Below are positions 12,854 through 29,785 of a stretch of 64,000 nt of DNA, piece by piece (within the stretch, counting starts at the first letter, position 1; the number at the start of each line of letters is the position of its first letter). Source of the DNA: Geodermatophilus sabuli (lineage in GTDB: Bacteria; Actinomycetota; Actinomycetes; Mycobacteriales; Geodermatophilaceae); contig NZ_JAAGWF010000027.1 in assembly GCF_010686765.1 (NCBI RefSeq), forward strand, positions 1-64,000, written 5' to 3'. Both the position numbers and the translations under genes were made by a program. The notes beneath the pieces are model-generated. The model was not told where the DNA came from. It searched no databases and worked only from the letters and a program-made list of their open reading frames with translations.

Positions 12854-12857
12854 GGGG

Positions 12858-13380: not shown

Positions 13381-13442
13381 GGGGCCTTGTGACCCTATCT
13401 GTCCTGGTCAGCGGCTTGCTGAAGCCGCCCGGAAGCCGGATA

Positions 13443-13462: not shown

Positions 13463-13568
13463 GCTCGGAGGTGGTCCCTCGCTGCCCTTGTCTGGTTCTC
13501 CGTCGGCGGCGTGCTGGTAGACGTGGGCGGCGGCGGGGAGGAGTGACCGCCGGCGCATCAGTTCCTTA

Positions 13569-14451
13569 GAGCTCATTTCAGAATGGCATCCAGGTGCCGG
13601 AAGCAGATCAGCGCGCAGGCCAGCTGGAGGAGCCCGAGGTGGAGGTCGGCGCGCCGCTCGTATCGGGTGCGTAGTCGTTTGAAGGCGTGCAGCCAGGCGA
13701 AGCCGCGCTCGACGACCCAGCGCTGTTTGCCCAGGCCGGAGCCGTGCGCGACGCCGCGGCGGGCGATCTTCGGGGTGATGCCCCGGTCGCGGAGCTGGCG
13801 GCGGTGGATGTCGTAGTCGTAGCCGCGGTCGGCCAGGAGCTGCCGAGGGCGGCGTCGTGGCCGGCCGCGTAGCCCGCGGATCGGCGGTATGGCGTCCACC
13901 AGGGGCAGCAGCTGGGTGACGTCGTTGCGGTTGCCGCCGGTGATGCTCACCGCCAGCGGGAGGCCGCCGGCGTCGCAGATCAGGCGGTGCTTGCAGCCAG
14001 GACGAGCGCGGTCGACCGGTGATGGGCCGACGTGGGCCCCCTTTGAGCGCGCGCACGTGGGAGCCGTCGATCGCGCAGACGTCGAGGTTCAGCTCGCCGA
14101 GTGCGCGTAGCTGGGCCAGCAGCTGCTCGTGCAGGGCGGGCCAGACGCCGGCGGCGGTCCAGTCCCGCAGCCGCCGCCAGCAGGTGATGCCCGAGCAGCC
14201 GACCACCGAGGCAGGGAGCTGGTTCCAGGCGATGCCGGTCTTGAGCACGAACACGATGCCGGCCAGGGCGGCCCGGTCATCGACCGGCCGGCGACCCGGA
14301 TGCCGGTAGCGACGGGGCTTGGGCGGTGGGAGCAGCGGAGCGATCTGCTTCCAGAGCCGGTCAGGGACGAGGTCCTTGATCACCTCCCCGAGGGTCGCCA
14401 GCAGCCACCGAGGCGCGAAGCAGACGCGCCGACGTCATTCAGAAACGATCT
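13569..14451 (-). mobile_element. IS5-family insertion sequence, 883 bp
   Basis: Ends are imperfect terminal inverted repeats: left GAGCTCATTTCAGAATGGC, right (reverse complement) GAGATCGTTTCTGAATGAC, 15 of 19 identical. TTA flanks both ends (13566-13568 and 14452-14454) as the target duplication, as expected for IS5-family members that duplicate 2-4 bp. It contains one transposase gene with a frame change. Size fits the IS427-like group of the family. It sits inside an integrase gene, so it arrived after the element formed. Confidence 0.9.
13573..14383 (-). CDS. IS5-family transposase, two overlapping frames
   Basis: The N-terminal frame starts at ATG 14383 (MIKDLVPDRLWKQIAPLLPP) and carries the first catalytic Asp in LDVCAIDGSHVRALKGG. 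The C-terminal frame ending at 13573 carries the second Asp in LLADRGYDYD and the downstream E in RWVVERGFAWLH, so the DDE triad is complete only across both frames. The switch falls near 14040-14047 at an AAAGGGGG run and needs a +1 (or -2) change. This may be programmed frameshifting or a decay mutation; frame A continues open past the IS end, which argues that there is no selected stop. Confidence 0.8.
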
Positions 14452-14778
14452 CTTAGTCGTCGCACCGGTCGCCGGAGCAAGGGTGGCGCTGGTGTGGCGG
14501 AGCTCGTGGGGCCGGACGGCCGGCAGGTCGATGGCGTCCGTGGCGCGCCGGAACGTCGAGTTCCAGTGGCTGCCCGCTAGCTAGCCGCCGACCTGGTGGC
14601 GAACAGGAGCGCGTCTGGAGTAGCGACGACGTCCTTCTCCAGAGGCTGCTCTAGGCGACCGCAACGGCGTCCAGGAGGTCGCGGTGGAGACGTCAACCAG
14701 CGTACCCCTGATGTCGACTTGCTTTCCGGGTCATCGCACCATCACTATAGCTGCGTCGACTCTAGGGGGAGGTCGAGC

Positions 14779-16083
14779 GTGGCCATCGGATATAACGACG
14801 GTCGACTCCTTATTCATCTTCACTTTCAAAAACCGAGCCGCTGGATGCACAGGCGTGTAGAGCGCGTCGACTTCATAAGCGACAACCTGTGTAGACACCA
14901 CGTCAGCCTAGATTTCGACGTGCAGCGTGCCTCCGTAGTACAAGTTGCGCGGACCGCAGGATGGATGCCGACTTCCCTCTTGCTGCCGCTCGGACTGATG
15001 GCCAAAGACCCGCCGCTTACCAGTTTTGACCTTCGCGACGACGCCGGAGTCAGTCGTCCATTGCTCACTAGTCAGGAGACGGCCGAGGCGGCTCACCAGG
15101 CACTACGCTACGTGGCATCTAAAATTCTGCAACCTCAGGTTCTGAGCGATGCTAGCCGGCGCACGCTATGGGACATCGTTAGTCGCCCGGCGAGCGAGGC
15201 TGAGAGTGCCCTCAAGGGCTGGTATGACCCGACTACGCACACCTATGCAGCCGGCTCGGAGGAGAGTCGCCTCATGGGTGATGCTGCATTCAAGCTGATC
15301 GTCAGTGAACTGGTGGATAACTACATCGCCCTGACTCCCATTGATCCAACCACGACACGGCAACTCTTGAAGTACTCTTACGTGTCTGATGTCCCGTGGG
15401 AGGCGCCGCGCCTCGTTGATCGAATTTTCGGAACGTCGGCACGGTTTACTTTCCCGGTCGCGGCCGGAGCGAGTTACAGTTACCATTTCGAGCTCGCAGC
15501 CCCTGAGAATTCGGATGTTAGACGGCTCGCCTTGAGCGAGGTGGCAGGGGATCCTCCATCAGCAGCAAATGCTAAGAACTTAATGCGTGTTGACGGCAGG
15601 CGAGAGCAAATGCACGTATACGCACATGAGGCTGATCGCTCCGCGAACCACGCCGTAGTTGTGGACCTCGTTCCTCAAAGGAGAGGGTTGGTTAGGTACG
15701 CCTGGTTCGGCGCTCTCTATGCGAGCGTTGCACTCGTGTCTGGCTACCTTTGGCAACTCTTCACTCGCCGGCTCGAAGACGCCAACGTTGAGGCACTTGG
15801 AGCCGCACTGCTACTCGTACCCGCTTTGATAGCTGTCTACGTCAGCCGGCCCGGAGAACATGGTATGGCCGCCCGGTTCGCCTTCGGGGCCCGTGTGGCT
15901 ATGGTCTTGGCCGCAGCGGCTGCAGTGCTCGGCAGCATTGCACTAGCCTTAGGATTCAAGGGGCTCGCGCTCGCCAACTTCTGGCTCGGCTCAAGCATTG
16001 GGGCGGTCCTGCCGACCCTGTACCTGTGGTATGTGTACCGGCGCTCCGGTGAGGTTATTGACTACGAGACCACTCGTGGCTAG
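14779..16083 (+). CDS. Unknown membrane protein of the element
   Basis: A 434-aa protein I do not recognise. Residues 1-290 are soluble, with mixed charge (starting MAIGYNDGRLLIHLHFQ) and no signal peptide. Four hydrophobic segments follow near the C terminus: WFGALYASVALVSGYLW, ALGAALLLVPALIAVYV, VAMVLAAAAAVLGSIALAL and FWLGSSIGAVLPTLYLWYVY. Cytoplasmic domain followed by a four-helix membrane tail is a layout seen in several defence effectors and sensors, but that is only an analogy. GTG 14779 has GGGGAGGT with a five-base spacer. Codon use is visibly less GC-biased than the core genes, consistent with transfer. Confidence 0.7.
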   Translation: MAIGYNDGRLLIHLHFQKPSRWMHRRVERVDFISDNLCRHHVSLDFDVQRASVVQVARTAGWMPTSLLLPLGLMAKDPPLTSFDLRDDAGVSRPLLTSQETAEAAHQALRYVASKILQPQVLSDASRRTLWDIVSRPASEAESALKGWYDPTTHTYAAGSEESRLMGDAAFKLIVSELVDNYIALTPIDPTTTRQLLKYSYVSDVPWEAPRLVDRIFGTSARFTFPVAAGASYSYHFELAAPENSDVRRLALSEVAGDPPSAANAKNLMRVDGRREQMHVYAHEADRSANHAVVVDLVPQRRGLVRYAWFGALYASVALVSGYLWQLFTRRLEDANVEALGAALLLVPALIAVYVSRPGEHGMAARFAFGARVAMVLAAAAAVLGSIALALGFKGLALANFWLGSSIGAVLPTLYLWYVYRRSGEVIDYETTRG

Positions 16084-16111
16084 GCTGCACGCTTCCCTGA
16101 GGAGGGGTCTC

Positions 16112-16297
16112 ATGTCGGTGGTGGCTCGCTGGTTGGACGACCGCCGGGTGGACTTCGGTGTCATGGATGTCGCCGAGGGCAAGCGCCCAGGAGCCGTTCT
16201 AGGGGACAAGGACCTACAGCGGCGTGCCGACGACAGGCTGCGCGAGCTTGAGCGCGAGCTCGAGTGTGAGCTCGCCGCCGCTGGCTCACCTAAGTGA
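16112..16297 (+). CDS. Small charged hypothetical protein, 61 aa
   Basis: Begins MSVVARWLDDRRVDFGVMDV and ends in a highly charged helix (DDRLRELERELECELAAAGS). GAGGAGG precedes the ATG by about six bases, one of the best ribosome sites in the element. It follows the unknown membrane protein by 28 bp on the same strand, so they may be co-expressed. No family recognised. Confidence 0.55.
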   Translation: MSVVARWLDDRRVDFGVMDVAEGKRPGAVLGDKDLQRRADDRLRELERELECELAAAGSPK

Positions 16298-16455
16298 GGC
16301 AGCGGTAGGGCGGCTGCCTTCGGGGGTCCCGCAGTTGCCTAGGGCCTGCGGGGTTGCTGGCTGCCTTTGACCTTGCACGCAACGTCTGCGCCACGCTCGG
16401 CCGTCAAGGAGTTGCTGGCCCGTCGGATCTACAGGGTGGCGCCTGTTAGTCGACG

Positions 16456-17592
16456 TCACCGTGGCCGCTCGATGTCGTCGTCCCGCGTCCTGGTGATCGC
16501 CCCGAGCATGGCGTCGAGGGCGCGGGCGATCTCGGCGTCGCGGTCGTCGGCAGCGTGCTGGTAGACGAGGGCGGCGGCGGGGGAGGAGTGGCCGAGCCGG
16601 CGCATGAGCTCCTTGGTGGTCGCGCCGGTGGCCGCGGCGAGGGTGGCCCCGGTGTGCCGCAGCTCGTGCGGCCGGACTGCCGGAAGGCCGATGGCGTCGG
16701 CGGCACGCCGGAAGGTCGAGTTCCAGTTGCTGCGGGCGAGATATCCCCCGGAACCGGTGGAGAACAGGAGGGCATCTGGAGAACCGCCTACGTGCTTCTT
16801 TAGGTGAACCTCCAGTGACGCCGCGGTCGCGGCGGGGAGGGTCACGGTCCGGCGTCCGGCATCGGTTTTGGGTTCGCCGATCACCCACCGGTTGTCGATG
16901 CGCCGGACGGATCGTTCGACGCGAAGCCGGCCGCCGGCCAGGACATCCGACCGGCGTAGTGCGGTGGCCTCACCGAACCGGAGACCACCGAAGGCCAGCA
17001 CGAGCAACAGCGCTCGATAGCGCTCCGTTCTCCTGTTTCGCCCCAGTTGCTCGGCCAGTCGCAAGGCCTCCGAGGCGGTGAGCGCTCGGGACGGCCGGGT
17101 GGCCTTGGGTGTGCCGGCGCCCCGCAGCTTGCACGGGTTGGACGGAATGGCCTCGTCCGCGACCGCCACGTTGAGGATGGCGCGCAGCAGTCGGTAGGAC
17201 TGAGCCAGAGCAGTCGGGCCGGTCGTTCGGCCGGCCTTTACGTGCCAGGAGCGGACGGCGGCCGGGGTCACCTCCTCAACAGGAACGGCCCCCCAGGCAT
17301 CGGTCAGGTGGTGACGCCACAGCGACGCGTACAGGCTGCGGGTGCCTTCACGGAGGTCGTTGCGGGCGAGGTAGTCGTCGGCGTACTCGCCGACGGTCCG
17401 GCGGCCAGCCTCCGGGGCTCGCCAGCTCTTCCGGACGAGGGCGGCCTCTTGAGCCGACAGCCATGCCCGAGCATCTGCCTTGACGGTGCCGAAGACCTTG
17501 GACCGGCGCCGACCGTCCGGCCCGACGTAGCGGGCGCGGTACCGGCCGTTGGGGAGTCGGTCGATGTTCCCGAAGCCTGGTCCTCTGCCCAT
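16456..17592 (-). CDS. int: Tyrosine recombinase / phage-type integrase
   Basis: A 378-aa intact tyrosine integrase. N-terminal AP2-like arm-binding region (GRYRARYVGPDGRRRSKVF), core-binding SAM-like domain at about 65-160, catalytic domain at 170-360. Catalytic residues visible are Arg in GGLRFGEATALRR, His-x-x-Arg in HELRHTGATLA, and Tyr in LVYQHAADD. It cuts and joins att sites; the likely target is tRNA-Gly, but the gene lies 3.1 kb inside the element while the IS-split relative lies next to the repeat. The excisionase-like gene lies 41 bp upstream on the same strand, so the two form the integration module. Confidence 0.92.
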   Translation of the reverse strand: MGRGPGFGNIDRLPNGRYRARYVGPDGRRRSKVFGTVKADARAWLSAQEAALVRKSWRAPEAGRRTVGEYADDYLARNDLREGTRSLYASLWRHHLTDAWGAVPVEEVTPAAVRSWHVKAGRTTGPTALAQSYRLLRAILNVAVADEAIPSNPCKLRGAGTPKATRPSRALTASEALRLAEQLGRNRRTERYRALLLVLAFGGLRFGEATALRRSDVLAGGRLRVERSVRRIDNRWVIGEPKTDAGRRTVTLPAATAASLEVHLKKHVGGSPDALLFSTGSGGYLARSNWNSTFRRAADAIGLPAVRPHELRHTGATLAAATGATTKELMRRLGHSSPAAALVYQHAADDRDAEIARALDAMLGAITRTRDDDIERPR

Positions 17593-17633
17593 GCCGTGAC
17601 CCTGGGCGGCAGGTCAGCGGATGTCCGCCGATG

Positions 17634-17852
17634 TCATCGCTGGCTGGGGATGCGCCCTTTGTCCACAAGGGCGTCTAGCGCTGACCGCTCCAGGCGCACA
17701 TACTTGCCGACTTTCACGAAGGCGATCCGGCGCTCGGTGATGAGCCGGCGGATGAATCGCTCTCCCGTGCCGAGGTACTCGCCGGCCTGCGCGACGGTGA
17801 GCAGCGGGTCACTCGCGGAGTACCGCTCTTCGCTCATCCGGTGCGCCGTCAT
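17634..17852 (-). CDS. xis: Excisionase-family helix-turn-helix protein
   Basis: A 72-aa MerR/Xis-like protein (helix_turn_helix_17, 'excisionase family DNA binding domain'). Diagnostic sequence is LLTVAQAGEYLGTGERFIRR then 'LITERRIAFVKVGKYVRLERSALDALV'. These proteins bend DNA next to the integrase arm sites and push recombination toward excision. It precedes int in the same direction. Start choice between ATG 17852 and ATG 17837 is open; both keep the whole domain. Confidence 0.85.
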   Translation of the reverse strand: MTAHRMSEERYSASDPLLTVAQAGEYLGTGERFIRRLITERRIAFVKVGKYVRLERSALDALVDKGRIPSQR

Positions 17853-17865
17853 GATCGAAGCCTCG

Positions 17866-18225
17866 TCACAACCCTCCAGTAGGCCTCCAGAACTTTCTCG
17901 CCCCGCGGACCCGCTCCAGGCCACTGGCGACCTGCTGCCCGACGCAGACGTCCCTAAGCGGCGCCACGCTCGAGTGCGGGACCTTGTCCGTCACGGGGTA
18001 GGAACCGTCGTCAGCCAGCGAGTCCCATGCCTGGGTCTCCTCGCGGTAGGACGCGTCCGTGCTCGCGTAGGCCTCGCGGATGGCCTCGAACCGCGCATGC
18101 CGGTCCGCCTCGTCGAGCAGTTCGGCGATCACTTCGGCGGCGGTCATCTGTTGCTGACTTGCCCGTGCGGCGATGCGCTCGCGCAGGCTCCGCGGCACCT
18201 TGATGGTGGTCACCGTGTCGGGCAT
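17866..18225 (-). CDS. Ribbon-helix-helix (antitoxin-like) protein
   Basis: A 119-aa protein starting MPDTVTTIKVPRSLRERIAA, a ribbon-helix-helix strand and helix, followed by 'MTAAEVIAELLDEADRHARFEAI'. This looks like the DNA-binding antitoxin of a MazF/PemK-type pair. The normal antitoxin would end near residue 75; here the frame continues for about 45 residues of different character, and no toxin ORF follows before the xis gene 14 bp away. It may be a solitary regulator or a toxin-antitoxin locus in which the toxin decayed and its remnant became fused. Confidence 0.6.
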   Translation of the reverse strand: MPDTVTTIKVPRSLRERIAARASQQQMTAAEVIAELLDEADRHARFEAIREAYASTDASYREETQAWDSLADDGSYPVTDKVPHSSVAPLRDVCVGQQVASGLERVRGARKFWRPTGGL

Positions 18226-18265
18226 ACCGACGAGGATGCCCGCAAGATCCGCGGTAGCGAACACC

Positions 18266-18977
18266 GACGCCTCGCGATCTCAAGATGCGCCGCTCTCGCC
18301 TGGCCGCCGGACCCAACGAGCTCAAGATCACCGACCGACACACCTCATGCACTGTCGGGCCAGCAACTCGTTGTGACGAGTAGATCGAGGCAGCCACGAC
18401 GTGCGGGTGGGGCTTGGCGCCCGCGGGCGAAGACAACCTCCCATGGTCGCCGCCGTCCCCGTCGCCGAGATGCAAGAGGTGTGATGCCTCGTGATCTTGG
18501 AGTCTCCAGTGCTGCTTGGCCCGGGGCGGTCGCGCCGCGAAGCCGGGTCCAGAGCAATGCCTTGCTGGAGCCGACTTAGGCCTCAGGCTTCTCCGTGTCG
18601 GCCCGCGTCTTCGTGGGCGTAGCCGAGTGGATCAGCCCCGGCACGTCTGGCCGGCGATAGGCTCGTCTTGGGCGGCTTCATGGGTCTGCTCCTCATGAGC
18701 ACTCCACCAGCCAGCCGATGGCTTGCCCGGATGCACGCGAATGAACGGCCCCCGAACGGGCGCTGAATCATCGCCTGGCAGCGCTCCCGCGAGGGAGCGG
18801 CAGCAGTCGGGGCGCACCCCGGCGTATGTCCTCCGCCAGGGCGCGCATCCTCGAGGCCGCGGTGATCACGAATGCGTTCAGCAGGGCGGTGCTTCCGGGA
18901 TCAGCGCACGGCCGCAGCGCCGCATCTTGTCGGTGGCGAACCCTAGGCTCGCAGCAACCAACCACGGGGGAATGTCA
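18266..18977. other. Gene-poor stretch upstream of the CBASS operon
   Basis: About 710 bp between the ribbon-helix-helix gene and capV. I see no convincing long gene. It holds one short ORF with a good ribosome site (18583-18681) and must contain the CBASS promoter, for which I cannot name a clear -35/-10 pair. Confidence 0.4.
18583..18681 (-). CDS. Possible 32-aa small protein
   Basis: ATG 18681 is preceded by GAGGAG with a seven-base spacer and opens a basic 32-residue frame starting MKPPKTSLSPARRAGADPLG. No family is recognised. The ribosome site is the main support; it may also be chance in GC-rich DNA. Confidence 0.25.
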   Translation of the reverse strand: MKPPKTSLSPARRAGADPLGYAHEDAGRHGEA

Positions 18978-20012
18978 ATGACCGGCTCTTACGCTTCGCA
19001 CGGACCGACACCCGGCCGATTTCAGGGTGACCGCTTTCAGATTCTTTCACTCGACGGCGGCGGAGCGAGGGCGCTGTTCACTGCACACGTTCTCGCGCAC
19101 ATCGAGGAAGACCTGGGCATCGTGATCACGGACCACTTCGACTTGGTCGCCGGGACCTCGGCCGGAGGCATCGTCGCGCTGGGTCTAGGCGCGGGTCTCA
19201 GGCCCAAAGAAATCGCCGAGCACTTCGGTGACCTCGTAGATCGCGTTTTCCCGGCTCGGCTACAACGCCGTGCGCGCTGGAGCCGGCTTCGGCAGCCCGC
19301 TTACGACAGCGAAGTCCTTCGTGATGTGCTGCTCGAGGTCCTCGGTCACCGGACTTTGGGCGACAGTTGCATGCGGTTGGTCATCCCGTCGTGGGACATC
19401 CAGCGCGGCGAGGTTCACATCTTCAAGACCCGCCACAGCGAACGTCTCACCCGGGATTGGCGAATCGACATGGTTGACGTCGCACTCGCGACCACCGCAG
19501 CCCCCACGTACTTCCGAGCAGCCCGTGTCCCCGATGCACCGCTCATCGACGGCGGCGTCTGGGCCAATAACCCTTCTGTATTGGCAATTGGTGAAGCCGT
19601 CAGCATGCTGGGCGTTCCGTTAGAGGCTATTCGCGTCTTGAACGTCGGAACCATGGAACCGTTCACGGACAACGCCGACCGACTGGAGAAGGCTGGCATC
19701 TTGGGGTGGGGGCCAAAGGCTGCTGGCGTCATCCTCAACGCCAGTAGCCGGGGTGGCATGGGAACCGCCATGCACTTGGTCGGCTTCGATGACTTCGTCC
19801 GCTTCGACGCGCCTGTACCGCCGGGCAAGTTCGCCCTCGACCGGATCAACGCACAGTCCGTCCGAGGATATGCGTCCACCACCAGCCGAAACCTCGCCCC
19901 CGAGTTCGCCGCCAAGTTCGCCGACCACGCGGCACCTCCCTTTACCCCGCTTCCTCCACCGTCAGCGCCCAGCGGGCCGCGCACCGACACACTGCCCGAA
20001 GGAGATTTGTGA
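18978..20012 (+). CDS. capV: CapV-like patatin phospholipase, CBASS effector
   Basis: A 344-aa patatin-like phospholipase. The oxyanion motif is LSLDGGGARALF (about 24-35), the nucleophile elbow GTSAGG (about 63-68) gives catalytic Ser, and the catalytic Asp is in LIDGGVWANNPS (about 193). In CBASS, cyclic nucleotides made by the neighbouring CD-NTase switch on CapV, which degrades membrane phospholipids and kills the infected cell. ATG 18978 is preferred because GGGGGA lies six bases upstream. The stop overlaps the CD-NTase start (TGATG), and AAGGAG for that gene lies inside capV, so expression is coupled. Confidence 0.88.
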   Translation: MTGSYASHGPTPGRFQGDRFQILSLDGGGARALFTAHVLAHIEEDLGIVITDHFDLVAGTSAGGIVALGLGAGLRPKEIAEHFGDLVDRVFPARLQRRARWSRLRQPAYDSEVLRDVLLEVLGHRTLGDSCMRLVIPSWDIQRGEVHIFKTRHSERLTRDWRIDMVDVALATTAAPTYFRAARVPDAPLIDGGVWANNPSVLAIGEAVSMLGVPLEAIRVLNVGTMEPFTDNADRLEKAGILGWGPKAAGVILNASSRGGMGTAMHLVGFDDFVRFDAPVPPGKFALDRINAQSVRGYASTTSRNLAPEFAAKFADHAAPPFTPLPPPSAPSGPRTDTLPEGDL

Positions 20013-21031
20013 TGGAACACGTAGGCCACTTCAGGACGCTGCTTGAAGACACCGTCAACCTGCCCGATGGCAAACTAGCCAGCCTTGCTGACCGAGTTGA
20101 TAAAATTTATGCGGCTATCAAGGCAGCCAAGACCCAATCGCGCGTCCTAAGCAAGAAGCGGCAAGGTTCCTGGGCGCAGCGGACCATCATCAACCCGCCC
20201 AAGAACGTCGAGTTCGACGCTGATTTCATGCTCGAACTTAGGGAAGTCGAAGGCTGGACGCCAGCCGACTACAACGACGCCGTGTTCAACGCTCTAGACA
20301 ATGACCCTGTCTACGGCAGCATGGACGAACCCGTTGAAGCCAAGAACCGTTGCGTCCGCGTCTCATACGCCAACGACATGCACGTAGACGTTGTGCCCTA
20401 CGTGAACCTCGCGAACGGCGGGGAGCATATCATCAACTCCGAGACCGACGAGTGGGAGGCAAACAACTCTGACGGATTCACACAGTGGATGAAGACAAAA
20501 GATGACCTGACCGACGGCAACATGCGTCGAGTCATCAGACTCCTCAAGTATCTCCGCGACCACCACGGGTGGTACGAGGACACGGTCTCAATCATCCTGA
20601 CCACCGTCGTCGGCAACACGATCAAGCCAGAGAACGTTCTCGCAAATAGTGACTGCTACACCAACGTGCCGGTGACGCTGGCCCGCGTCGTATCCGACCT
20701 CGCGACGTGGGTCCGCGCCAATGACACCCGCCCCGAGGTTGAAGCGGACCCCGGTACGACCTTCACGCACCGCTGGACTGAGTCCCGCTACCAGCAGTTC
20801 CGCACTGACATCCAGAATCTGGATACGAGGATTGCCGCAGCGCTCGCCGAGACCGACGAAGATGACAGCCTCGACCTTTGGCGCGACCTCTTCGGCGGAG
20901 GGTTTAAGGCCCCCGAGTCGTCGACCAAGACGAGCAAGTTTCCGGCACTCGGTACCGGAAGCGGAACCGCGGGGGCAGCGGGTAGTGCAGCCTCAGAAAC
21001 GTCTACCAGCCGCAGCGGCAAAGTGGGATGA
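20012..21031 (+). CDS. CD-NTase (cGAS/DncV-like nucleotidyltransferase)
   Basis: A 339-aa SMODS-type nucleotidyltransferase. The active site is complete: QGSWAQRT (Gly-Ser at 52-53), the metal pair in VEFDADFML (Asp69, Asp71) and the third Asp in MHVDVVPYV (Asp126). On phage infection such enzymes make a cyclic di- or trinucleotide for the effector, here CapV. The last 40 residues are low-complexity Ser/Thr/Gly and the protein ends SGKVG, with a terminal glycine. Cap2 enzymes join the CD-NTase C terminus to other molecules, so the flexible Gly end fits a Cap2 substrate. ATGA overlap links it to cap2. Confidence 0.92.
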   Translation: MEHVGHFRTLLEDTVNLPDGKLASLADRVDKIYAAIKAAKTQSRVLSKKRQGSWAQRTIINPPKNVEFDADFMLELREVEGWTPADYNDAVFNALDNDPVYGSMDEPVEAKNRCVRVSYANDMHVDVVPYVNLANGGEHIINSETDEWEANNSDGFTQWMKTKDDLTDGNMRRVIRLLKYLRDHHGWYEDTVSIILTTVVGNTIKPENVLANSDCYTNVPVTLARVVSDLATWVRANDTRPEVEADPGTTFTHRWTESRYQQFRTDIQNLDTRIAAALAETDEDDSLDLWRDLFGGGFKAPESSTKTSKFPALGTGSGTAGAAGSAASETSTSRSGKVG

Positions 21032-22965
21032 CGCGGAAGAGAATCTCACCACCAGCGCTCACTAAGTGGCAGCGGCGAGCGCTGACAGACCTGCGCGCCC
21101 AAGCCAAGAATCAGCCGGAAGTCCTCACCATCGGCGCACAAGAGCGCGACGACGACGGCAACGTCTACGTGCGCTTCACGCTGCACACCAAAGATCTACC
21201 CGCGCCCAGCGCCGACGGCCTCACCTTCAAGACAGCCGAACAGTTCGTCCTCCTCGTCGCACCTACGGACGACCACCCGCCCACAGTGCTTCTGGAGCAT
21301 GGCCGGTTCATCGGCATCCCCCACGTCCTGTCCGGTTTCTACCTCTGCCTCTACCTCGACGAGTCCCGTGAATGGGATCCCGAGGTCGGCATCAACGGGA
21401 AGAACGGCGTGCTCAGTCGTCTCTGGGACTGGATGGAAAAGGCCGCCCAGAACGACTTTGACCCTGACTCCGCCCTCTTTCACGCAGTCGGAGGGGTCCC
21501 ACACATCACGCCCGGCACTCCGAGCATCATCGTCAGGCAGCTTCCAGAAACCAGAGCCCGCGTTGCCATCGCCTATCTCAACTGTCGAACCTCCCAGCGG
21601 CTCGACCTAGATCGCTACCCGGGACCTGACAGCGAGACAGTTCACACTCCGGTCTTCTTTGCCGACTCCGACATGCCGCTAGGAGCCGGGAATCACTTCC
21701 TCGGCCTGCTCCTCGGACTGATCCGGCACCCTCGCCCGCACGGACTCGATGCCTTCATCGCACCACGCCCCACCAGCCAGGTGCACGATCCCGGCCTCGT
21801 CGCCCACGCGCTCATCGCGAGCCGCCATCGCACGCGCTCGCACTGGTTCGCGGCGCACAACGTCGAGCCTGTGCCGAGGCCGTATGAGACGACGCCGGAC
21901 GCTGCCCTGTTCACGACGCTCGCGGCCAGCGCCACTCGCAACCCCGCTGGGACACCGCAGCGCCTCATCCTGGCCGTGCCCCACCCAACGGGAGGACCAC
22001 GCCACCTACTTGCCCTCCAACTTGCTCCCGCGCTTGCCGACGACCTCCGAGACCTGGTCCGCAACAGAACAACGACACTAATCCCCTATGAGCCCGACCG
22101 AATCAACATGGCAGCGCCCATCGAATGGTGCTTTGTGTCGGACGAACGCGCAGCCGTCACGACCCGGCGCGATGCCGGCCGCCCCGTCTCTGCATTGCGC
22201 GACAAGACCGTTGCGGTTCTTGGCTGTGGCGGTCTCGGATCGTGGATCGCCGAGTTCGTCGTTCGCGCCGGAGCCAAGCACGTCGTCATCAGCGATTACG
22301 GACGGGTCACTGGAGGACTGCTCGTTCGACAGAACTACGTTGAAGACGACAACGGAGGCCCGAAAGCGCTTGGGCTGTATACGCGTCTCAAGGCGATCAG
22401 CGACACCGTCCAGATCAATGCACATGGCCATCTCACTACATCCGAACTCACCCAGATCGCACTGACAGCCGACCTAATTATCGACGCAACGGTCAGCCTC
22501 AAGATGACGAAGCAGCTGGACACCGTCGCGACCAAGCCTCAGCGAAAGGCGATCATCGCACAAGTCGCTACGGACGCACGCAGCGGAACACTCGGATACG
22601 CGACCATCAATCCGCCCGACGGTGACACGACTATGACCGACATGGACCACCACCTGCGCGACCAGGTTCGCGCCGACGGAGCGCTTGAGCGCTACCGGTA
22701 CTTCTGGGAGGACCCCGCACCTGGCGACGAGTTCGTCCCCACGCGCGGATGCTCAGCGCCGACGTTCCACGGCTCAGCGGCAGATCTCGCTGCACTCGGC
22801 GGGGGACTGGCAACCCTTATCGCCAAGCACCTTGCCGTAGCTGCTCAGGGGGCGCACCTAATGGCTCTCCCCCATTCAGACGTAACGCCCGGACACAAGT
22901 ACCTGCCCTACGAGAGGCCTGTAGTTGGCGCATCACGCCGTGGGTCAGAGCCGACGCTCGCGTGA
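21028..22965 (+). CDS. cap2: Cap2-like E2-E1 ubiquitin-transfer fusion of CBASS
   Basis: A 645-aa two-part protein. An N-terminal E2-like domain carries the candidate cysteine in GFYLCLYLDESREW (Cys107). A ThiF/E1 adenylation domain follows from about 390, with the nucleotide loop VAVLGCGGLGSW and a candidate E1 Cys in TRGCSAPTF (Cys575). In type II CBASS, Cap2 attaches the CD-NTase C terminus to targets and so primes cGAMP-type synthesis. The usual Cap3 JAB/JAMM protease that reverses this is not encoded here or next to it, and no HxH...D metalloprotease pattern was found in this protein. Start overlaps the CD-NTase stop. Confidence 0.85.
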   Translation: MTRKRISPPALTKWQRRALTDLRAQAKNQPEVLTIGAQERDDDGNVYVRFTLHTKDLPAPSADGLTFKTAEQFVLLVAPTDDHPPTVLLEHGRFIGIPHVLSGFYLCLYLDESREWDPEVGINGKNGVLSRLWDWMEKAAQNDFDPDSALFHAVGGVPHITPGTPSIIVRQLPETRARVAIAYLNCRTSQRLDLDRYPGPDSETVHTPVFFADSDMPLGAGNHFLGLLLGLIRHPRPHGLDAFIAPRPTSQVHDPGLVAHALIASRHRTRSHWFAAHNVEPVPRPYETTPDAALFTTLAASATRNPAGTPQRLILAVPHPTGGPRHLLALQLAPALADDLRDLVRNRTTTLIPYEPDRINMAAPIEWCFVSDERAAVTTRRDAGRPVSALRDKTVAVLGCGGLGSWIAEFVVRAGAKHVVISDYGRVTGGLLVRQNYVEDDNGGPKALGLYTRLKAISDTVQINAHGHLTTSELTQIALTADLIIDATVSLKMTKQLDTVATKPQRKAIIAQVATDARSGTLGYATINPPDGDTTMTDMDHHLRDQVRADGALERYRYFWEDPAPGDEFVPTRGCSAPTFHGSAADLAALGGGLATLIAKHLAVAAQGAHLMALPHSDVTPGHKYLPYERPVVGASRRGSEPTLA

Positions 22966-22991
22966 CCCCGCATGCTCCGAGGCTGAGCGAG

Positions 22992-23018
22992 TGTCCCTGA
23001 GTGGGCCGCTCAGGGACA
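22992..23018 (+). terminator. Hairpin after the CBASS operon
   Basis: TGTCCCTGAG and CTCAGGGACA form a perfect 10-bp stem around a 7-base loop, 27 bp after the cap2 stop codon. There is no U-run, as is common for actinobacterial terminators. It would end the three-gene CBASS transcript. Confidence 0.6.
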
Positions 23019-23175
23019 GTTGAACGACCTATTCGAGGGCAACAGGTGCACAACCGATGACATCTCAAGGATCGCTTCGTAGCGACGCGCCAACACGTCC
23101 GGCCGCCCATCAACTAGTCGAGCAGCGATCTGGGACCAATGTGAGAAGACCCGGGGATTCGAGTGAGGTTGCGCG

Positions 23176-24423
23176 GTGACGGTCCTCGATGAGCCGCTGG
23201 CGTCGGTCCAATTGGAGCTACTTGATCTGATCTGGGAGCCCATCGGGTCCGCAGTCAATCGGGGTCACGACCCGGACTGGCCCGTGTGGGACTTCGTTCG
23301 GCGGTCACTCCTGAGTCGGTATCCGACTCTGGAGACCGCCGAGGAGGTGCTATCCAGCATTCCGGCGCTGGCATGGGGCGGGCCGTCCCGCAGTCGCCGC
23401 TATGGGCTCGTCTGGCATGAGGGCCACATCGCCATGAGCCCCGGCAAGGAGAACCGGGTCGGTCTCACCATCGCGGGTCTGGCGATGTTGGCGCGTAGTG
23501 GCCGGAATACCGGACCTTTGGCTGACGCATTGGCGGCAATCATCGGCACGGTGGCGGCTGCGGACGAGGCGCTGTCGCCGGATCCGTTCGAGGTGGTTCA
23601 GGCAGACGTTCCGCTCAGCGATTACACCGCCAGCGTGGCCACTCTCAGCCGGGAGCAGGGGTACGGATTTCCCGATCGGCTCATCGCAGACGGACTCGGC
23701 AATGGTCGCGAGTATGCGTTGATAGCAATCAACCAGATTGGCCGCCTCTTGCCTCTGCAAGTGCTACTCGGGCGCCAAAGCTTGCGCCCGTTTCGCTATG
23801 TACGTAACGCGGATGATTACCTAACTTGTATCGATACTGTCGAGGACAGCCAGCGAGAACCGGTTCACTACTCGTCACCGCTTACTCTTGTACAGACGCT
23901 GGACTATCTCGGTTACGTGTTGGCGGCGGATCCCCAATGGTTTGGCGGTCCACGTCTGACCGTCGCGCCGGACCTTCAATCCGCAGCGAGCCTCGGGATG
24001 CCGGTCACTACGCGAAGCGAGTACGAGTCCGCCTTGAGCGCTCTCTGGAATGTCCTTGCACAACTAAATGTCCCCGCAGTGCCGAAAGACATCCTCGCAG
24101 CGCGCTTCCATGGCAAACAGCCTGGGTCAATCGGTCGCTTGCAATCGTGGCTCGAGACGCGCGACGCCGATCCCGCTTCCCGTGAGCGTTGCATGGCCGC
24201 CCTGGCTACCGTGCGTCAGGTGGGGCGGCTCCGCACTGAGCCACAGCACGGATCGCCACAGGTGCGGCGCCAAGCGGTCGAAGCTCGGCGAAGGCTCGGC
24301 CTGCCTGACGTGGTGCATGACTATGAAGCGGCTTGGTCTCGAACGCTTGATGTCTTAGCCGGCGCCTTCAACGTTATCCGCGAGGAGGTGCAGGGAGTTG
24401 CCGGCCTTAGTGCCGTGGACTGA
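23176..24423 (+). CDS. Unknown 415-aa protein next to CBASS
   Basis: I do not recognise this protein. It has no signal peptide and no clear membrane segment. Residues about 1-190 are mixed (GHIAMSPGKENRVGLTIAGL), the middle has a possible strand-rich region, and the C terminus is helical and basic-amphipathic (VRRQAVEARRRLGLP, then 'AAWSRTLDVLAGAFNVIREEVQ'). The GTG at 23176 is preceded by GAGG at 23163-23168. It lies 158 bp downstream of the CBASS terminator hairpin, so it is probably a separate unit. Location between two defence-like loci in a mobile island makes a defence role possible, unproven. Confidence 0.6.
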   Translation: MTVLDEPLASVQLELLDLIWEPIGSAVNRGHDPDWPVWDFVRRSLLSRYPTLETAEEVLSSIPALAWGGPSRSRRYGLVWHEGHIAMSPGKENRVGLTIAGLAMLARSGRNTGPLADALAAIIGTVAAADEALSPDPFEVVQADVPLSDYTASVATLSREQGYGFPDRLIADGLGNGREYALIAINQIGRLLPLQVLLGRQSLRPFRYVRNADDYLTCIDTVEDSQREPVHYSSPLTLVQTLDYLGYVLAADPQWFGGPRLTVAPDLQSAASLGMPVTTRSEYESALSALWNVLAQLNVPAVPKDILAARFHGKQPGSIGRLQSWLETRDADPASRERCMAALATVRQVGRLRTEPQHGSPQVRRQAVEARRRLGLPDVVHDYEAAWSRTLDVLAGAFNVIREEVQGVAGLSAVD

Positions 24424-24665
24424 CCGCAACAAAATGGCGTCGGCGTCTGCCGCTCGACCTTGACCGGCAGTGGAGTTCGTTCGCGGTCGCGTGCATGCGT
24501 TCGCTGTCGCTCGAGTATGGCTCCCCAAACAGATGCAGTTGGCGGACTGCTGTGAACAGGGCGGCCGGTACCGGAGGGGCAGAGGCGACCCGAATCGATT
24601 GAGCGGTCTCGGTCGCCGTGCGCGTATGCGTGCCGATGGTTGCTATCGACCGTTCGTTGCACGCG

Positions 24666-25874
24666 TCATTCGGCGGGCGTACCCGACAAGGTGTCATCCC
24701 GGTAGACTGTCGCGTACACGAACGAGTCACCCTCGGCGGGCGACAAATCTGTCATCGAGTTCGCTGATGCGCCCTGCGCAACATGCCTGTGGGCCATCTC
24801 GATGAGCGCCGCTCGCATGCTGGCGACGGCGATAGGCATGTACAGGCAAGTGCTTATTACCTGGTCGGTGACGGTCACAGGCTCAAACCCGGGGACATCC
24901 AATGTCACCTGGGCGGCGCCGGACCTACGGTTTGGCGTCAAGGTTGCTCGTCTACCTCCGGAGTCGAACTCGGCAGCCAGCGCCCCGAGGTCAGCGCACC
25001 GCATCAGGCGCAGGTGACCCTCAATCAGCTGCAGGCGGGCTTCACCGGGGAGTGGATAGCTAGACGGAGCCCACAGACGGTGACTGCTGGCTTCAATGAG
25101 GTCGGAGTAGAACGCAATCACCGGCAGGACTGCGGTACGTCCGAGCGGCAATGCCGCTCCGATCGCATCCAGCGGCGTGTCCGGCGTAAAGGCAACTAGC
25201 GTGTCGTCCTCACCGAATGCGTGGGTGGCAACTAGGGATTGCGACCCCACACACCGCGCGAGGAGCGACCTCACCACATCGAAGTCCGGCTCAGGCAGGG
25301 ACCAGTCGAAGGCCTGCTTGACCGTTCCGTCCGGCTCGTCCGCCCGGCTGTTCGTCAGGTAGCTCTCAACCTGCTCACCGCGTTCCCGCTGGCGGGCCAA
25401 ACGCCCAGACGTGCTCATCCGTGGCGGCATAGTCGTGTTCTTGCACTCCAGGACCACCACTCCGGAAGTCGAAATCCCGACCACATCGCCTACCCCGATG
25501 AGAGTCGTGAGGTCGGCGACGATCGGAATTTGCCCGCTCGATATCAGCGAACGGGCGCACGCAAAGACGAAGTCGAAATCCGCTCCCTGTCCGGCAATCG
25601 ACGGTGGTTTGCCCCGGTGCTGCGACAGGGCTCGGATCGTGTGGCTGTCGAGCAACGTGTGAACCAGTCCATCCGCCATCACCCGAAGAAGGTGGCGGTG
25701 TCTCTTGCGGTCTGACGGGTCGATGTCGTCCGCGTTGGCTTCCACCTCGATCAGGGAGTCAGCGAGCCGGCGCTGCCACTCAAGCACGTCTCCCTGGGCA
25801 GGTAGAAGGGCGAGCTCAAGCATGAGCGCCCGCCTCACCTCTGCCAGATGATCTGGTCCACGACGGTCGGTCAT
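24666..25874 (-). CDS. PD-(D/E)XK nuclease-like protein, partner of AlbA_2 gene
   Basis: A 402-aa protein. The segment IGVGDVVGISTSGVVVLECK has the spacing of a PD-(D/E)XK nuclease core: Asp130, then Glu143-x-Lys145, on two hydrophobic strands. Helical sequence flanks this on the N side (residues 1-115). The C-terminal half is less recognisable (LGRTAVLPVIAFYSDLIEAS; 'GFEPVTVTDQVISTCLYMPIAVASM'). Cleavage of DNA is therefore plausible, but no specificity domain is evident. Its ATG overlaps the stop of the AlbA_2 gene by 4 bp, so both products are probably made together and act together. Confidence 0.6.
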   Translation of the reverse strand: MTDRRGPDHLAEVRRALMLELALLPAQGDVLEWQRRLADSLIEVEANADDIDPSDRKRHRHLLRVMADGLVHTLLDSHTIRALSQHRGKPPSIAGQGADFDFVFACARSLISSGQIPIVADLTTLIGVGDVVGISTSGVVVLECKNTTMPPRMSTSGRLARQRERGEQVESYLTNSRADEPDGTVKQAFDWSLPEPDFDVVRSLLARCVGSQSLVATHAFGEDDTLVAFTPDTPLDAIGAALPLGRTAVLPVIAFYSDLIEASSHRLWAPSSYPLPGEARLQLIEGHLRLMRCADLGALAAEFDSGGRRATLTPNRRSGAAQVTLDVPGFEPVTVTDQVISTCLYMPIAVASMRAALIEMAHRHVAQGASANSMTDLSPAEGDSFVYATVYRDDTLSGTPAE

Positions 25875-26983
25875 GTGGCGTCGGGCTGAGTGTCGCCTCG
25901 AAGGAGGGCGCGGCCGGCGGCGAGCTGCGCGTGGATCATGGGTGCTGTTATCGGGATCGAAGCTTCGCCGCGGCGTCTGACGATGCTGATGAAGGTCCCT
26001 TCCACGCGACCATCAATGATCGCGCCATGAACGAGGAAGGGCTTCAGCTCCTCGGGTTGCGGTGGTACGTCGATCAACATCACCATCCCGCCGTTCACCG
26101 TCACGTGCTCAACGGTGAGCCCGTACACCGGTGGGAAAACCCGCTCGTCTAAAGCCTGGTGGTACCGACGCACCATACGGGCGTCTAGGGGCAGGGGTGT
26201 CACACCTCGAATCTCCTCACCTCCCGCAACTCGTTTGGCCGACATGCCGACCACCACCACGCCACCGTCCTCCGCGTTGGCGAAGCGCGAGACTGACTGG
26301 GCCAGCGATATCCGTCCGGCGGGCCCACTGAGGTCGTAGTGCTGCGTCTTCACATCGAGCCAGTGCCCCTCTGGCTGTCCGACCAGAGCTGAGAGATGGC
26401 CTCCTCGAACGAGCCCTGCCACCGACTCGCGCGTCAGTTCACCTGAGGCGGCCGCCTCTAGCAGCAGCACCATCTCCGTCCCCACATCAAATAGGTCCAG
26501 CAGGGAACGGCCTCGCGTCGGACAGCGGAAGGACGCGTGCCACAGCCAAGGTGGTGACGCGTAATTCTCGTCGACCGACCAGTCCAGGACAGTCAGCGCA
26601 GATCGGGCCACCACAGGCTGCACCAGAGTGGCGTGGTGGGTGGGAACGCCGTCGTCCTCGTAGTCGTCCGACGCGTAAACGATGTCGAGCGCGAGGTGTC
26701 CTCCGTGCAGCGAGAACGACACTGGGGCCACCGGCGCGCCGTCTTCGGCCATGTAGCCCTCATCCGTCGCCGAGACCAAGACCGCGCCGTTGAACCCGCC
26801 TGCCTCCTCCAGTTGGCGAAGCACCCGCTGCAGATCGGCGGCGCGACAGCTCGCCAGGTCGTTCGGATGGACGACCACACCGTCGTCGGACAGCCGCCGT
26901 ACGCGGCCGGCGAACCACCAGACCACCCCTTCAGGGTCGGCGCGGATCGTGTTGCGGTAGGCGGCCGCGGGCTTGAGTGCCAC
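25871..26983 (-). CDS. Schlafen/AlbA_2 domain protein
   Basis: A 370-aa protein whose C-terminal half matches the AlbA_2 (Schlafen-type, ATP-binding or RNA-cleaving) domain: HWLDVKTQHYD (about 207-217), ISLAQSVSRFANAEDGGVVV (about 225-244) and GEEIRGVTPL, the conserved 'ExK...FANxxGG...G' pattern with Asp-x-Lys in place of Glu-x-Lys. The N-terminal 200 residues are an unrecognised domain. AlbA_2 proteins occur in several phage-defence loci and in transcription control. It is first in a two-gene operon with the PD-(D/E)XK-like protein; the GTG start lacks a strong ribosome site. The pair fits no named system that I know. Confidence 0.65.
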   Translation of the reverse strand: MALKPAAAYRNTIRADPEGVVWWFAGRVRRLSDDGVVVHPNDLASCRAADLQRVLRQLEEAGGFNGAVLVSATDEGYMAEDGAPVAPVSFSLHGGHLALDIVYASDDYEDDGVPTHHATLVQPVVARSALTVLDWSVDENYASPPWLWHASFRCPTRGRSLLDLFDVGTEMVLLLEAAASGELTRESVAGLVRGGHLSALVGQPEGHWLDVKTQHYDLSGPAGRISLAQSVSRFANAEDGGVVVVGMSAKRVAGGEEIRGVTPLPLDARMVRRYHQALDERVFPPVYGLTVEHVTVNGGMVMLIDVPPQPEELKPFLVHGAIIDGRVEGTFISIVRRRGEASIPITAPMIHAQLAAGRALLRGDTQPDAT

Positions 26984-27422
26984 CTGCTCATTGTCGAGCG
27001 GCGGCGAGCATCCGCGAGGTCAGACTGCCGTCCTCCATCTGCTTGGACCGTCGCCCGAGGCGGCGTGACTGCGCCGGTCTCGACTCAGAGTGCACTGCGA
27101 CGACGAAGAGAGCCTGGTTAGGTGCCGAGGGCTAGTGCCACGAGGCCGCCGTCAGGCACACCCGGATCTGGCACCCTTGCGACGCAGGATTCACCGCGCG
27201 AGGTTTCGCGCCTGGTTGCAGTTGTGGTTGCAGTTAGGGGCGTTCGCTCCCGTTCCCAATGGATCGCCGTCGTGCAAACGAGCACGTCAGGTCGCTTACG
27301 GAACGGTAGCGAACCGTCCCGAACGCGATCATGACGGCCTGGCAGTGCGGTGGCAGGGGCCGGCCGGAGTCGGGCTGCAGCACGACTGCGTGTCCCTATT
27401 GGAGCAACGTCGCCTGGGCGAG
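26984..27422. other. Intergenic 439 bp, no gene seen
   Basis: It lies between the start of the AlbA_2 operon and the stop of the TerD-fusion gene. I see no ORF with a ribosome site or family likeness. A short direct repeat (GGTTGCAGTT twice, near 27211-27236) is the only regular feature; it may be part of promoter control. Confidence 0.4.
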
Positions 27423-29264
27423 TCAGTCCTGTTCTTCGATGTCGACGCCGTGGCGGACGGCCAGGTCAGCGAGGTCGTCGGGGTAACCCTGACCGACGGC
27501 GCGCCAGCGCCAGGTGCCGTTGCGCTGGTACAGGGTTCCGAGGATGAGGCTGCGCTCGTCGGTGGCGGCGTCGAGCGTGGCGCGGGCGACCGGCGCGCCG
27601 TCCTGGTCGCGCAGGATCAACTCGATCGGCCCGACGTCGCCGAACGTCGCCATGTCGTCTATTGCAGCGGCGAGAAGCACTCGGCGCTGGGTCGGGGGAA
27701 GGCGGTCCGGTCGCAGCGTGCACATCGCCTCGCCGGCGATCCCGCCGGTGACGGCGACGGCTCCGGTGGGGTGCACGCGGGCGTTGTAGAAGACGAAGTC
27801 CTCGTCGACGGTGACCTGCTCGTCGGCGTCGACCACGAAGGCCACAACGTCGATGTCGTAGCTGTCCGCTGCGGTGCGACCCGGGAGCGCCCAGCGCACC
27901 TCAACCAGCCATTCCGCCGGTGCCGGGAGGTCCATGACTTCCCCGCGCACGAGGATGTGCGGGGTTGCCGGGATTGTCTGCGTCGGTGCCGCCGCGGGGA
28001 GGTGGCTGACCGACGGAACCGTGTCGATCTCTGCCGGATTGTCCGGCCAGAGGCAGGGGGTCAGGGTGTCGGCGTCCAGGGGACGAAGGCCGAGTGCCCG
28101 CGCCCGTTCGGTCCGTGGGTCGGGCACCGGGGTAGGAACGAGCACGACATCGGTGACCGAGCCGGTCAGGTTGACCGCGACGCTGGCGCCCGCCTCGAGG
28201 ACCCGCTCCCGGATGGTGGCCGCCGTTTCGTGGGCGCCGCCGAGGACGACGACGCGACGGCCGCTGAGCGGCCCGCTCGGCACGGGACTCCGTGGCGCCG
28301 GAACGGCGGTGCGGCCGGCGGTGACGGTCTCGGCGACCTTCGGCTTTCCGGGCGAGACCGCGGTCAGCAGAGCGACCAGCTCCGGCTCGGTGATGACCGG
28401 TGTGCCGTGCTGGCGGGCCCGGGCGGCCTTGCCCGTCTGCTCCTCGACGCGGTTGCAGACCAGGAGGTGGGTGCGGCCGCTGACGGTGTTCATGACGTCG
28501 AGCCCGGCATCGGTGCAGCGGCGGGTCAGGATCTCCCGCGGGATGCTGGTCGACCCGGTGATGACGACCTTCATGCCCTGCACCAGCGGCGTTCCCGGCG
28601 TCCATGGGCCGGGGGTTCGCCACGGGCAGGGCGTGCGCGGCGCCTTGGCCGGAAAGGGTGCCGGCGCGGTGTCGGTGCAGGCGGACAGCGGCAGGTCCAT
28701 GTCCAGCCGCGCGGCAGTGACGAGCGAGTGCCGCAGGATCTCGACCAGAACTCGGACGTCGTCCTCGGCGTCGTGGGCGCGCACGGCGCGCACGCCCCAG
28801 TAGTCGGCGACCGAGCCGAGCTTGAAGTCGGCGACGGGCAGGTCCAGCCGGCGGGTCAGCGCCAGGGTGCACAGCCGTTCCTCGACCGGTAAGCGCCGTC
28901 CGGCGCGCTTCGATTCGGCGGTGAGGAAGCGGTGGTCGAAGTCGGCGTTGTGGGCCACCGCGATGCGCCCGTGGACCCGGCGGGCGATGTCGTCGGCGAC
29001 ATCGGCGTACTGCGGCGCGCCGCGGAGCTTCGCGCGGGTCAGGCCGTGGATGTGCGTGGGGCCGGGATCGCAGCCCGGATCGAGCAGCGTGGACCAATTC
29101 GACTCGATCGACCCGTCGGCGGCCATCTGCGTGACCGCGACCTGCAGGACCCGGTCACTGCCAGCGCGCAGACCCGAGGTCTCCACGTCCACCACCGCGT
29201 AGCCGTATGGATAGCGGTGTGCGACCTCGGCGGGCAGAACCGCCGAGGAGAGGACCCCCGTCAT
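27423..29264 (-). CDS. DEDDh exonuclease-BRCT-BRCT-TerD fusion protein
   Basis: A 613-aa multidomain protein. Residues about 20-180 are a DnaQ-like 3'-5' exonuclease: YAVVDVETSG (Asp26, Glu28), AHNADFDHRFL and the closing His-Asp in HDAEDDVRVL. A BRCT domain follows (MKVVITGSTSIPREIL), then a second BRCT-like block (LSGRRVVVLGGAHETAATIR), and finally a TerD-like beta-sandwich (YDIDVVAFVVDADEQV, 'DFVFYNARVHP', 'LRDQDGAPVARATLDAAT'). TerD domains bind calcium in stress and phage-linked loci. The fusion suggests DNA-end processing tied to a stress complex. The ATG 29264 follows AAGGTA/TACCTT by six bases (leaderless layout); no SD. Confidence 0.85.
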   Translation of the reverse strand: MTGVLSSAVLPAEVAHRYPYGYAVVDVETSGLRAGSDRVLQVAVTQMAADGSIESNWSTLLDPGCDPGPTHIHGLTRAKLRGAPQYADVADDIARRVHGRIAVAHNADFDHRFLTAESKRAGRRLPVEERLCTLALTRRLDLPVADFKLGSVADYWGVRAVRAHDAEDDVRVLVEILRHSLVTAARLDMDLPLSACTDTAPAPFPAKAPRTPCPWRTPGPWTPGTPLVQGMKVVITGSTSIPREILTRRCTDAGLDVMNTVSGRTHLLVCNRVEEQTGKAARARQHGTPVITEPELVALLTAVSPGKPKVAETVTAGRTAVPAPRSPVPSGPLSGRRVVVLGGAHETAATIRERVLEAGASVAVNLTGSVTDVVLVPTPVPDPRTERARALGLRPLDADTLTPCLWPDNPAEIDTVPSVSHLPAAAPTQTIPATPHILVRGEVMDLPAPAEWLVEVRWALPGRTAADSYDIDVVAFVVDADEQVTVDEDFVFYNARVHPTGAVAVTGGIAGEAMCTLRPDRLPPTQRRVLLAAAIDDMATFGDVGPIELILRDQDGAPVARATLDAATDERSLILGTLYQRNGTWRWRAVGQGYPDDLADLAVRHGVDIEEQD

Positions 29265-29711
29265 GTCCGCAAGGTAGTTCCGGTCAGTGACCGTTCCGTG
29301 TTCTTGGCCAGGCGTGTCGTGACGCCTGAGCCTTGAGTGCATTAATCGGTTCTGCGGTGGCCACGGACGGGGTGGGCAGCGGCCAACCTCCGCCACATGA
29401 GAGTGCCTCGGTCTGACCTCGCCTGCGCCGAGAGCCGGGGCGGGTTTGGCTCTCGCCCTTCCCCACTCAGCCTCGGCCGATCGCACCGACCGGCCCGATG
29501 AGGGGGCAACGTGACCCACCCCTGGTCACGGCGAACCCGGCGACGATCTGATCAGCGGTCGTGACCTGCTCTTATCCCGACGTCTCCGTGACCTATTCAT
29601 GACCTATCCATCGGAAAACAGGGGTCCTGAGAGGGTACAAACGGGCCTTCCGGGGGCTCCTCCGGAGCTTCTCCAGGAGGGCTGACAGGCCATCGGACCT
29701 GGGCTTTTACG
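29265..29711. other. Right end of the element, non-coding
   Basis: About 450 bp with no supported gene between the TerD-fusion start and the tRNA. It contains the promoter of that gene, a possible arm-type site at 29589-29608, and GC-rich inverted segments around 29650-29685. Confidence 0.5.
29589..29608. repeat. Arm-type site candidate, right (TGACCTAT twice)
   Basis: Exact copy of the 20 bp at 13443-13462. It lies 102 bp inside the right attachment repeat, while the left copy lies 63 bp inside the left one. Both read in the same direction. Confidence 0.6.
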
Positions 29712-29757
29712 TGGAGCGGGTGACCGGGATCGAACCGGCATGGCCAGCTTGGAAGGC
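29710..29757. repeat. Right attachment repeat (attR-like) within tRNA-Gly
   Basis: Identical over 48 bp to 13333-13380. It covers the tRNA 3' part including anticodon loop, T arm and CCA. The tRNA stays functional because the integration kept a complete copy at this end. Confidence 0.9.
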
Positions 29758-29785
29758 TGGGGCTCTACCATTGAGCTACACCCGC
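29712..29785 (-). tRNA. tRNA-Gly (anticodon TCC)
   Basis: On the minus strand the sequence folds as a full cloverleaf. The acceptor GCGGGTG pairs with CACCCGC, the D arm GCTC pairs with GAGC, the anticodon stem CCAGC/GCTGG closes loop CTTCCAA (anticodon TCC), and the T arm loop is TTCGATC. CCA is encoded. It is the target of the 16.4-kb element. Confidence 0.97.

Follow-up and report, generated by a model that had tools for sequence, protein, structure and literature searches.

Two overlapping genes of Geodermatophilus sabuli, here called A and B, raise the question of whether they form a single two-gene defence system or whether A is an independent gene that has acquired B as a partner in certain lineages. 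They lie in the first 64,000 nt of contig NZ_JAAGWF010000027.1 (assembly GCF_010686765.1), and this whole stretch is referred to below as the window. An initial annotation of the window had described them as an operon of a Schlafen/AlbA_2 protein and a protein with a PD-(D/E)XK nuclease core, and as a candidate defence system of an undescribed kind. The two reading frames and their 4-bp overlap were recovered as it had given them:

25871–26983, minus strand: gene A, 370 aa, GTG start; N-terminal part of about 180 aa followed by an AlbA_2/Schlafen domain
24666–25874, minus strand: gene B, 402 aa, ATG start; PD-(D/E)XK-like motif, no family match
25871–25874, minus strand: stop/start overlap of A and B, ATGA, 4 bp (from the list of open reading frames and a strand check)

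An overlap of this form would be expected to couple the translation of the two genes. The reading favoured here, with a probability of about 0.45, is that A, carried by mobile elements of actinobacteria, is an accessory gene in its own right and encodes an infection-triggered nuclease of the Schlafen type, with B as a partner added in the window and Klenkia. This reading draws on the AlbA_2 match of A, the retention of residues E205, [DE]210 and K212, the mobile DNA around many A homologues, the defence genes nearby (a cyclic oligonucleotide-based antiphage signalling system, CBASS, in the window and ABC-three component, ABC-3C, genes elsewhere), the overlap with B, and a DUF5677 partner found in the place of B on a plasmid.

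The independence of A is seen most directly in its relatives. Eleven intact A homologues, with identities reaching as low as 29%, were aligned; left out were plasmid matches H4–H9, H11 and H12 (AlbA_2 relatives with 23–54% of A aligned), the short matches H10, H13 and H14, N-terminal fragments in G065 and G080, weak or partial matches in G079, G189 and G428, and duplicate fetches of the same genes. Near nine of the 11, no B was detected by tblastn in the 12–17 kb around A (best E 0.7), and for this reason A and B cannot be regarded as an obligatory system. A single two-gene system, as proposed in the initial annotation, is not supported as a general rule; the two B relatives found apart from the pair, both partial or broken, likewise show no A in the sequence fetched around them. 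Recognised mobile DNA carries A in eight of the 11 cases. On the Arthrobacter plasmid pZXY21, A is paired with a DUF5677 gene, which occupies the position of B and has the same length of overlap (4 bp), and ABC-3C genes occur near A on two further plasmids, one of Streptomyces and one of Rhodococcus. In genome G684, A stands beside pSAM2-type genes (RepSA, FtsK-like and GntR). Three viral contigs from IMG/VR, which are taken for prophages, have A inside head, connector or tail gene clusters: in L018 it is close to the major head and head closure genes and in L019 to tail genes, on the strand opposite to these genes in both, and in L020 it is close to the head-tail adaptor and tape measure genes. 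Further viral scans with the A homologues as queries recovered nothing beyond these three contigs, and a tblastn search of phages with A gave no match.

The pair itself is rare. A and B are real genes, and the recurrence of the pair with unchanged arrangement and 4-bp overlap in Klenkia soli exceeds chance. Between the two genomes A shares 69% identity (dN 0.24, dS 1.35; nonsynonymous and synonymous substitutions per site) and B 57% (dN 0.37, dS 1.41), values that indicate purifying selection on both genes, with ratios that are rough because dS is high. Since six other proteins of the window's genomic island, used as queries, gave no match in the Klenkia locus, the pair is common to two loci that otherwise differ. 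A Klenkia gene (L003, nt 824–4690) considered as a possible serine recombinase was dropped, as Pfam gave an Lsr2 DNA-binding domain only. Conservation of the pair, which had been proposed as a check on the original idea, reaches a second genus, where the intact pair was found in that one genome. A scan for promoters and terminators found no promoter and one terminator-like site, both results being within the range of shuffled sequence.

Within the family, B and likewise the intact pair were found in two of 112 genomes, that of the window counted, and a scan of GTDB contigs with B returned one locus, that of Klenkia soli. In wider samples, which partly overlap and in which the best four or five first-look candidates per genome were scored, B was detected in 2/396 genomes of the phylum (own included; the other is a partial relative in G119) and in 3/394 of the class (own and G119 included; the third is G521). 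No A was found in the stretches fetched around these two relatives, and neither B against the viral contigs nor B or its relatives against plasmids and phages (tblastn) gave a match. The G119 gene (L021, nt 6768–7445, minus strand) comprises the C-terminal part alone, and that of G521 (L039, nt 1366–1926, minus strand) stops after the GD motif and lies beside a transposase-like sequence; each belongs to another actinomycete family. Gene A was found in five of the 112 family genomes (own included), at full length in two, in 4/396 genomes of the phylum at E ≤ 1e-10 (own included; two matches extend across most of A), and in 4/394 of the class at E ≤ 1e-12 (own included). N-terminal A-like fragments of 60% and 37% identity in two family genomes (L023, nt 6964–7320; L024, nt 7076–7381) are probably decayed copies.

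Residues 205–313 of A match the Pfam family SLFN_AlbA_2 (PF04326) with E 4.3e-5 and 24.5 bits, which narrowly misses the curated cut-off of 25.3; the initial annotation had named a Schlafen/AlbA_2 domain in this protein. The G684 homologue scores 37.9 bits, above the cut-off, and PF04326 is matched at E ≤ 0.1 by six of nine homologues in an alignment. The N-terminal part, said there to lack a family, gave no convincing match in profile searches either (best DUF2064, E 0.043), and A matched no PDB sequence up to E = 1. A structure model built on an alignment of five sequences (predicted local distance difference test score, pLDDT, 74.7; predicted template modelling score, pTM, 0.69; residues 320–370 mostly below pLDDT 50) retrieved six PDB chains at E ≤ 0.001 in a Foldseek search: four of 3lmm (E 7e-5), 2kyy (1.8e-4) and 7fex, the SLFN11 N-terminal domain (4.9e-4), with probabilities of 0.85–1.0 and query-normalised template modelling (TM) scores of only 0.20–0.25. 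We take 3lmm and 2kyy to be AlbA_2 proteins, and the model thus predicts an AlbA_2 fold for A. The same search against viral models gave no match at E ≤ 0.001. In the model the predicted order of strands and helices is alike in the N- and C-terminal halves, as in the two-lobed Schlafen core.

Of the three carboxylates of a Schlafen active site, two are retained:

26348–26371, minus strand: residues E205...D210-x-K212 of A, two Schlafen catalytic carboxylates and a lysine (alignment of 11)
26216–26218, minus strand: residue E256 of A, candidate substitute for the third carboxylate (acidic in 11/11 homologues)

E205, [DE]210 and K212 are conserved in all 11 homologues. According to the available text of PMC5862951, the active site of SLFN13 consists of E205, E210 and D248, and the E205A and E210A mutants are fully inactive; the pairing of E205 and residue 210 of A with these follows the motif and not a computed alignment. 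The counterpart of SLFN13 D248 was at one point placed at position 248 of A (acidic in one homologue, L019), and was moved to 249 after comparison by eye with three canonical AlbA_2 proteins. The acid at 256 may have taken over from the third carboxylate that was lost there. In the favoured reading, the AlbA_2 catalytic lobe would carry out metal-dependent cleavage of structured RNA such as tRNA; infection would set A off, and the infected cell would cease phage production, by abortive infection or superinfection exclusion, from which the mobile element bearing A would profit. The A genes of the window and of Klenkia soli would have gained the overlapping partner B, with a probable role in cutting DNA or in control within the same response.

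For B, the GD-(12)-ECK core described in the initial annotation is present:

25440–25490, minus strand: residues 129–145 of B, GD-x12-ECK, within the best-conserved 40 residues of the protein

The motif reads GD-VVGISTSGVVVL-ECK, with a hydrophobic run preceding ECK, and presumably resembles that of NERD nucleases. It is shared with Klenkia B, its GD half is also present in the broken G521 relative, and the 40 residues around it (121–160) are the most conserved, at 80% identity to Klenkia B. A loose pattern, D-x8-20-[DE]xK, occurs in 29% of shuffles of B, and the bare motif accordingly proves little, while a strict pattern (GD, hydrophobic run, [DE]xK), drawn up after the sequence had been seen, occurs in 0.26% of 5000 shuffles. 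Together with conservation in Klenkia, the latter rules out pure chance as the origin of the motif. Motif and conservation make a nuclease fold a candidate for B, which is best read as a lineage-specific, nuclease-like add-on. The core stretch of B and Klenkia B gave no Pfam match at E up to 10, and the single PDB chain retrieved by sequence (E 0.18) is regarded as chance.

A number of observations weigh against the favoured reading. Six of the eight A genes on mobile DNA were drawn from plasmid or viral collections, which biases that count; of the five A genes from whole genomes, mobile DNA was recognised for the window and G684 only, with no mobile element recognised around A in Klenkia, G325 and G611. 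The model of A superposes poorly on 7fex (TM 0.20 and 0.23, root mean square deviation 19), and its two halves share no profile similarity detectable by hhalign (probability about 0.1%), so that a two-lobed Schlafen core is no more than possible. Searches of Pfam, PADLOC and NCBIfam with B gave no match up to E = 1, and the structure model of B is unusable (pLDDT 44). The third Schlafen carboxylate (GVxD, position 249) is absent from all 11 A homologues, where the residue is A, T, G or S, and three of three canonical AlbA_2 proteins from relatives, compared with A by eye, have GVAD and no acid at the equivalent of 256; A may for this reason be a binder without catalysis. The loss extends beyond the 11 homologues, as partial relatives L007 and L015 also lack an acid at 249 (the former has E at the equivalent of 256, the latter at 248).

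A competing explanation makes A a regulator that binds nucleic acid and whose AlbA_2 fold is catalytically dead, leaving B as the sole nuclease of the pair. The available text of PMC6299218, which treats AlbA_2 as a DNA-binding domain in prokaryotic Argonaute operons, agrees with it, as does the missing third carboxylate; against it, E205, [DE]210 and K212 persist in homologues down to 29% identity, an acid is fixed at 256, and nine of 11 homologues have no B. This explanation is considered unlikely. Doubtful as well, though ranked slightly above it, is an obligatory two-gene defence system with B as DNA-cutting effector and A as sensor or regulator, as originally proposed. The ATGA overlap, the sharing of the pair by two otherwise different loci and the purifying selection on both genes are all in keeping with such a system, and the nine A genes with no B in the fetched sequence, the G119 and G521 relatives with no detectable A (though partial or broken), and the occurrence of intact pairs in just two of 112 family genomes, that of the window included, are not.

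The least probable of the explanations weighed gives A no part in defence and treats it as a passenger of mobile elements, selfish or neutral, such as a free-standing endonuclease gene lodged among the structural genes of phages. Free-standing homing endonucleases favour sites of this kind, and A lies among structural genes in three viral contigs, with a G+C content at third codon positions (GC3) below that of the structural genes. A second gene of this kind in L018 could be read in the same way: a DUF2726 gene (nt 7218–8210, minus strand) of lower GC3, which is not similar to B, lies across the major capsid gene from A as a second intruder in the structural cluster. However, A is also carried on plasmids and on an island that have no such structural genes close to it, near ABC-3C and CBASS genes, and no homing-endonuclease family appeared among its profile matches. 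As for the favoured reading, that of an autonomous, Schlafen-type accessory gene, a more elaborate form of it is tentative: A would define an undescribed, self-sufficient lineage of bacterial Schlafens that spreads in Actinomycetota with plasmids, phages and integrative elements, its third carboxylate having moved from 249 to 256 across a beta-hairpin, with interchangeable overlapping partners (B, DUF5677) by which it is retargeted or controlled.

Genes of the AlbA_2/Schlafen kind are already known from mobile and defence settings. The N-terminal domains of SLFN11 and SLFN13 resemble A in their AlbA_2-type catalytic lobe, E...[DE] pair and similar length (about 350 residues), as well as in the Foldseek match to 7fex, and differ in that A has no third carboxylate at the equivalent place and superposes poorly overall. 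The best PDB fold matches, 3lmm (DIP2311) and 2kyy (N-terminal domain of a RecG-related helicase), share the fold in part (142–173 alignment columns), the architecture of A being another. Bacterial Schlafens are stated to act in defence in the available text of PMC12839542, which cites a 2025 preprint (Taboada et al.) that proposes them as anti-phage proteins, and also places Schlafen RNases next to bacteriophage exclusion (BREX) systems; as described there, they have in common with A the AlbA_2/Schlafen domain in a defence or mobile setting, and differ from it in that A has an N-terminal extension and matches no domains of the kind described there. B resembles PD-(D/E)XK and NERD-like nucleases in having GD-x12-ECK after a hydrophobic run, and differs in finding no sequence match in PDB or among the families of Pfam, NCBIfam and PADLOC. 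ABC-3C genes lie near A on two plasmids, whereas A occurs elsewhere without them. Neither A nor B matched any family of PADLOC-DB 2.0.0 (2023) up to E = 1, and a literature search, most subscription journals being outside it, found no paper on a pair of AlbA_2 and PD-(D/E)XK genes, in agreement with the earlier statement that no named system of this composition is known. What seems new is the A subfamily with its altered active site, its copies inside phage structural clusters and its differing partners. Most relatives of A have no B and many lie on plasmids or in phage-like DNA, which suggests that A is an undescribed, possibly antiviral accessory gene. If this is true, the prokaryotic relatives of the antiviral Schlafens of vertebrates would gain a mobile branch in actinobacteria, whose rearranged active site is open to tests by point mutation, and the exchange of partners would show one effector gene becoming different two-gene systems. 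The copies in phage structural clusters offer a way to ask whether lysogens use A against other phages.

In the window the pair is part of a 16.4-kb integrative element (nt 13333–29763), bounded by repeats of a tRNA-Gly gene and containing its own integrase, a CBASS operon and small helix-turn-helix and ribbon-helix-helix genes, in line with the CBASS-bearing mobile island of the initial annotation:

13333–13385: left end of the element, an attachment-site repeat that copies the 3' portion of tRNA-Gly (direct-repeat search)
29710–29763: attachment-site repeat inside tRNA-Gly, right end (direct-repeat search)
29712–29785, minus strand: tRNA-Gly(tcc), integration target
16456–17592, minus strand: tyrosine integrase of the element (Pfam Phage_integrase, 1e-17)
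18723–22965, plus strand: CBASS operon, with patatin phospholipase, CD-NTase and E1-E2 protein (profile matches)

The element is well supported, strongly by the direct repeats (48 bp exact, 54 bp at 98%) and the integrase, and less firmly by the empty site. When the tRNA-Gly region was compared in five relatives of the genus (L045–L049), the 120–170 bp left of the left repeat ran unbroken into an intact tRNA-Gly gene in three (L046, L047 and L048; 74–80% identity), as expected for an empty site, and the alignment was limited to the tRNA and a short flank in L045 and L049. An extra degraded tRNA repeat occurs 5.3 kb away in L048, so that in this relative the flank in common could belong to the end of a different element and not be native. 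L049 has sequence in common with the inner right end of the 16.4-kb element; from these two observations, tRNA-Gly(tcc) is possibly a hotspot for integration in the genus.

Membership of A in the CBASS operon was considered and rejected, as A is on the opposite strand, another gene intervenes, and the patatin and E1-E2 proteins have no match in the 17-kb Klenkia locus. No ABC-3C match was found among the window proteins scanned. The intervening gene (nt 23176–24423, plus strand; 415 aa) is convergent to B and without a Pfam, NCBIfam or PADLOC match. Upstream of A, nt 27423–29519 (minus strand) encode a protein with RNase_T exonuclease, BRCT and TerD domains; an exonuclease gene after A on the Rhodococcus plasmid (L006) is 27% identical to it, which may be chance. 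A DDE transposase fragment (nt 13573–13950) lies just within the left end of the element, and the lower-G+C stretch to the left of it (nt 8344–13332) is possibly another island or a tandem element.
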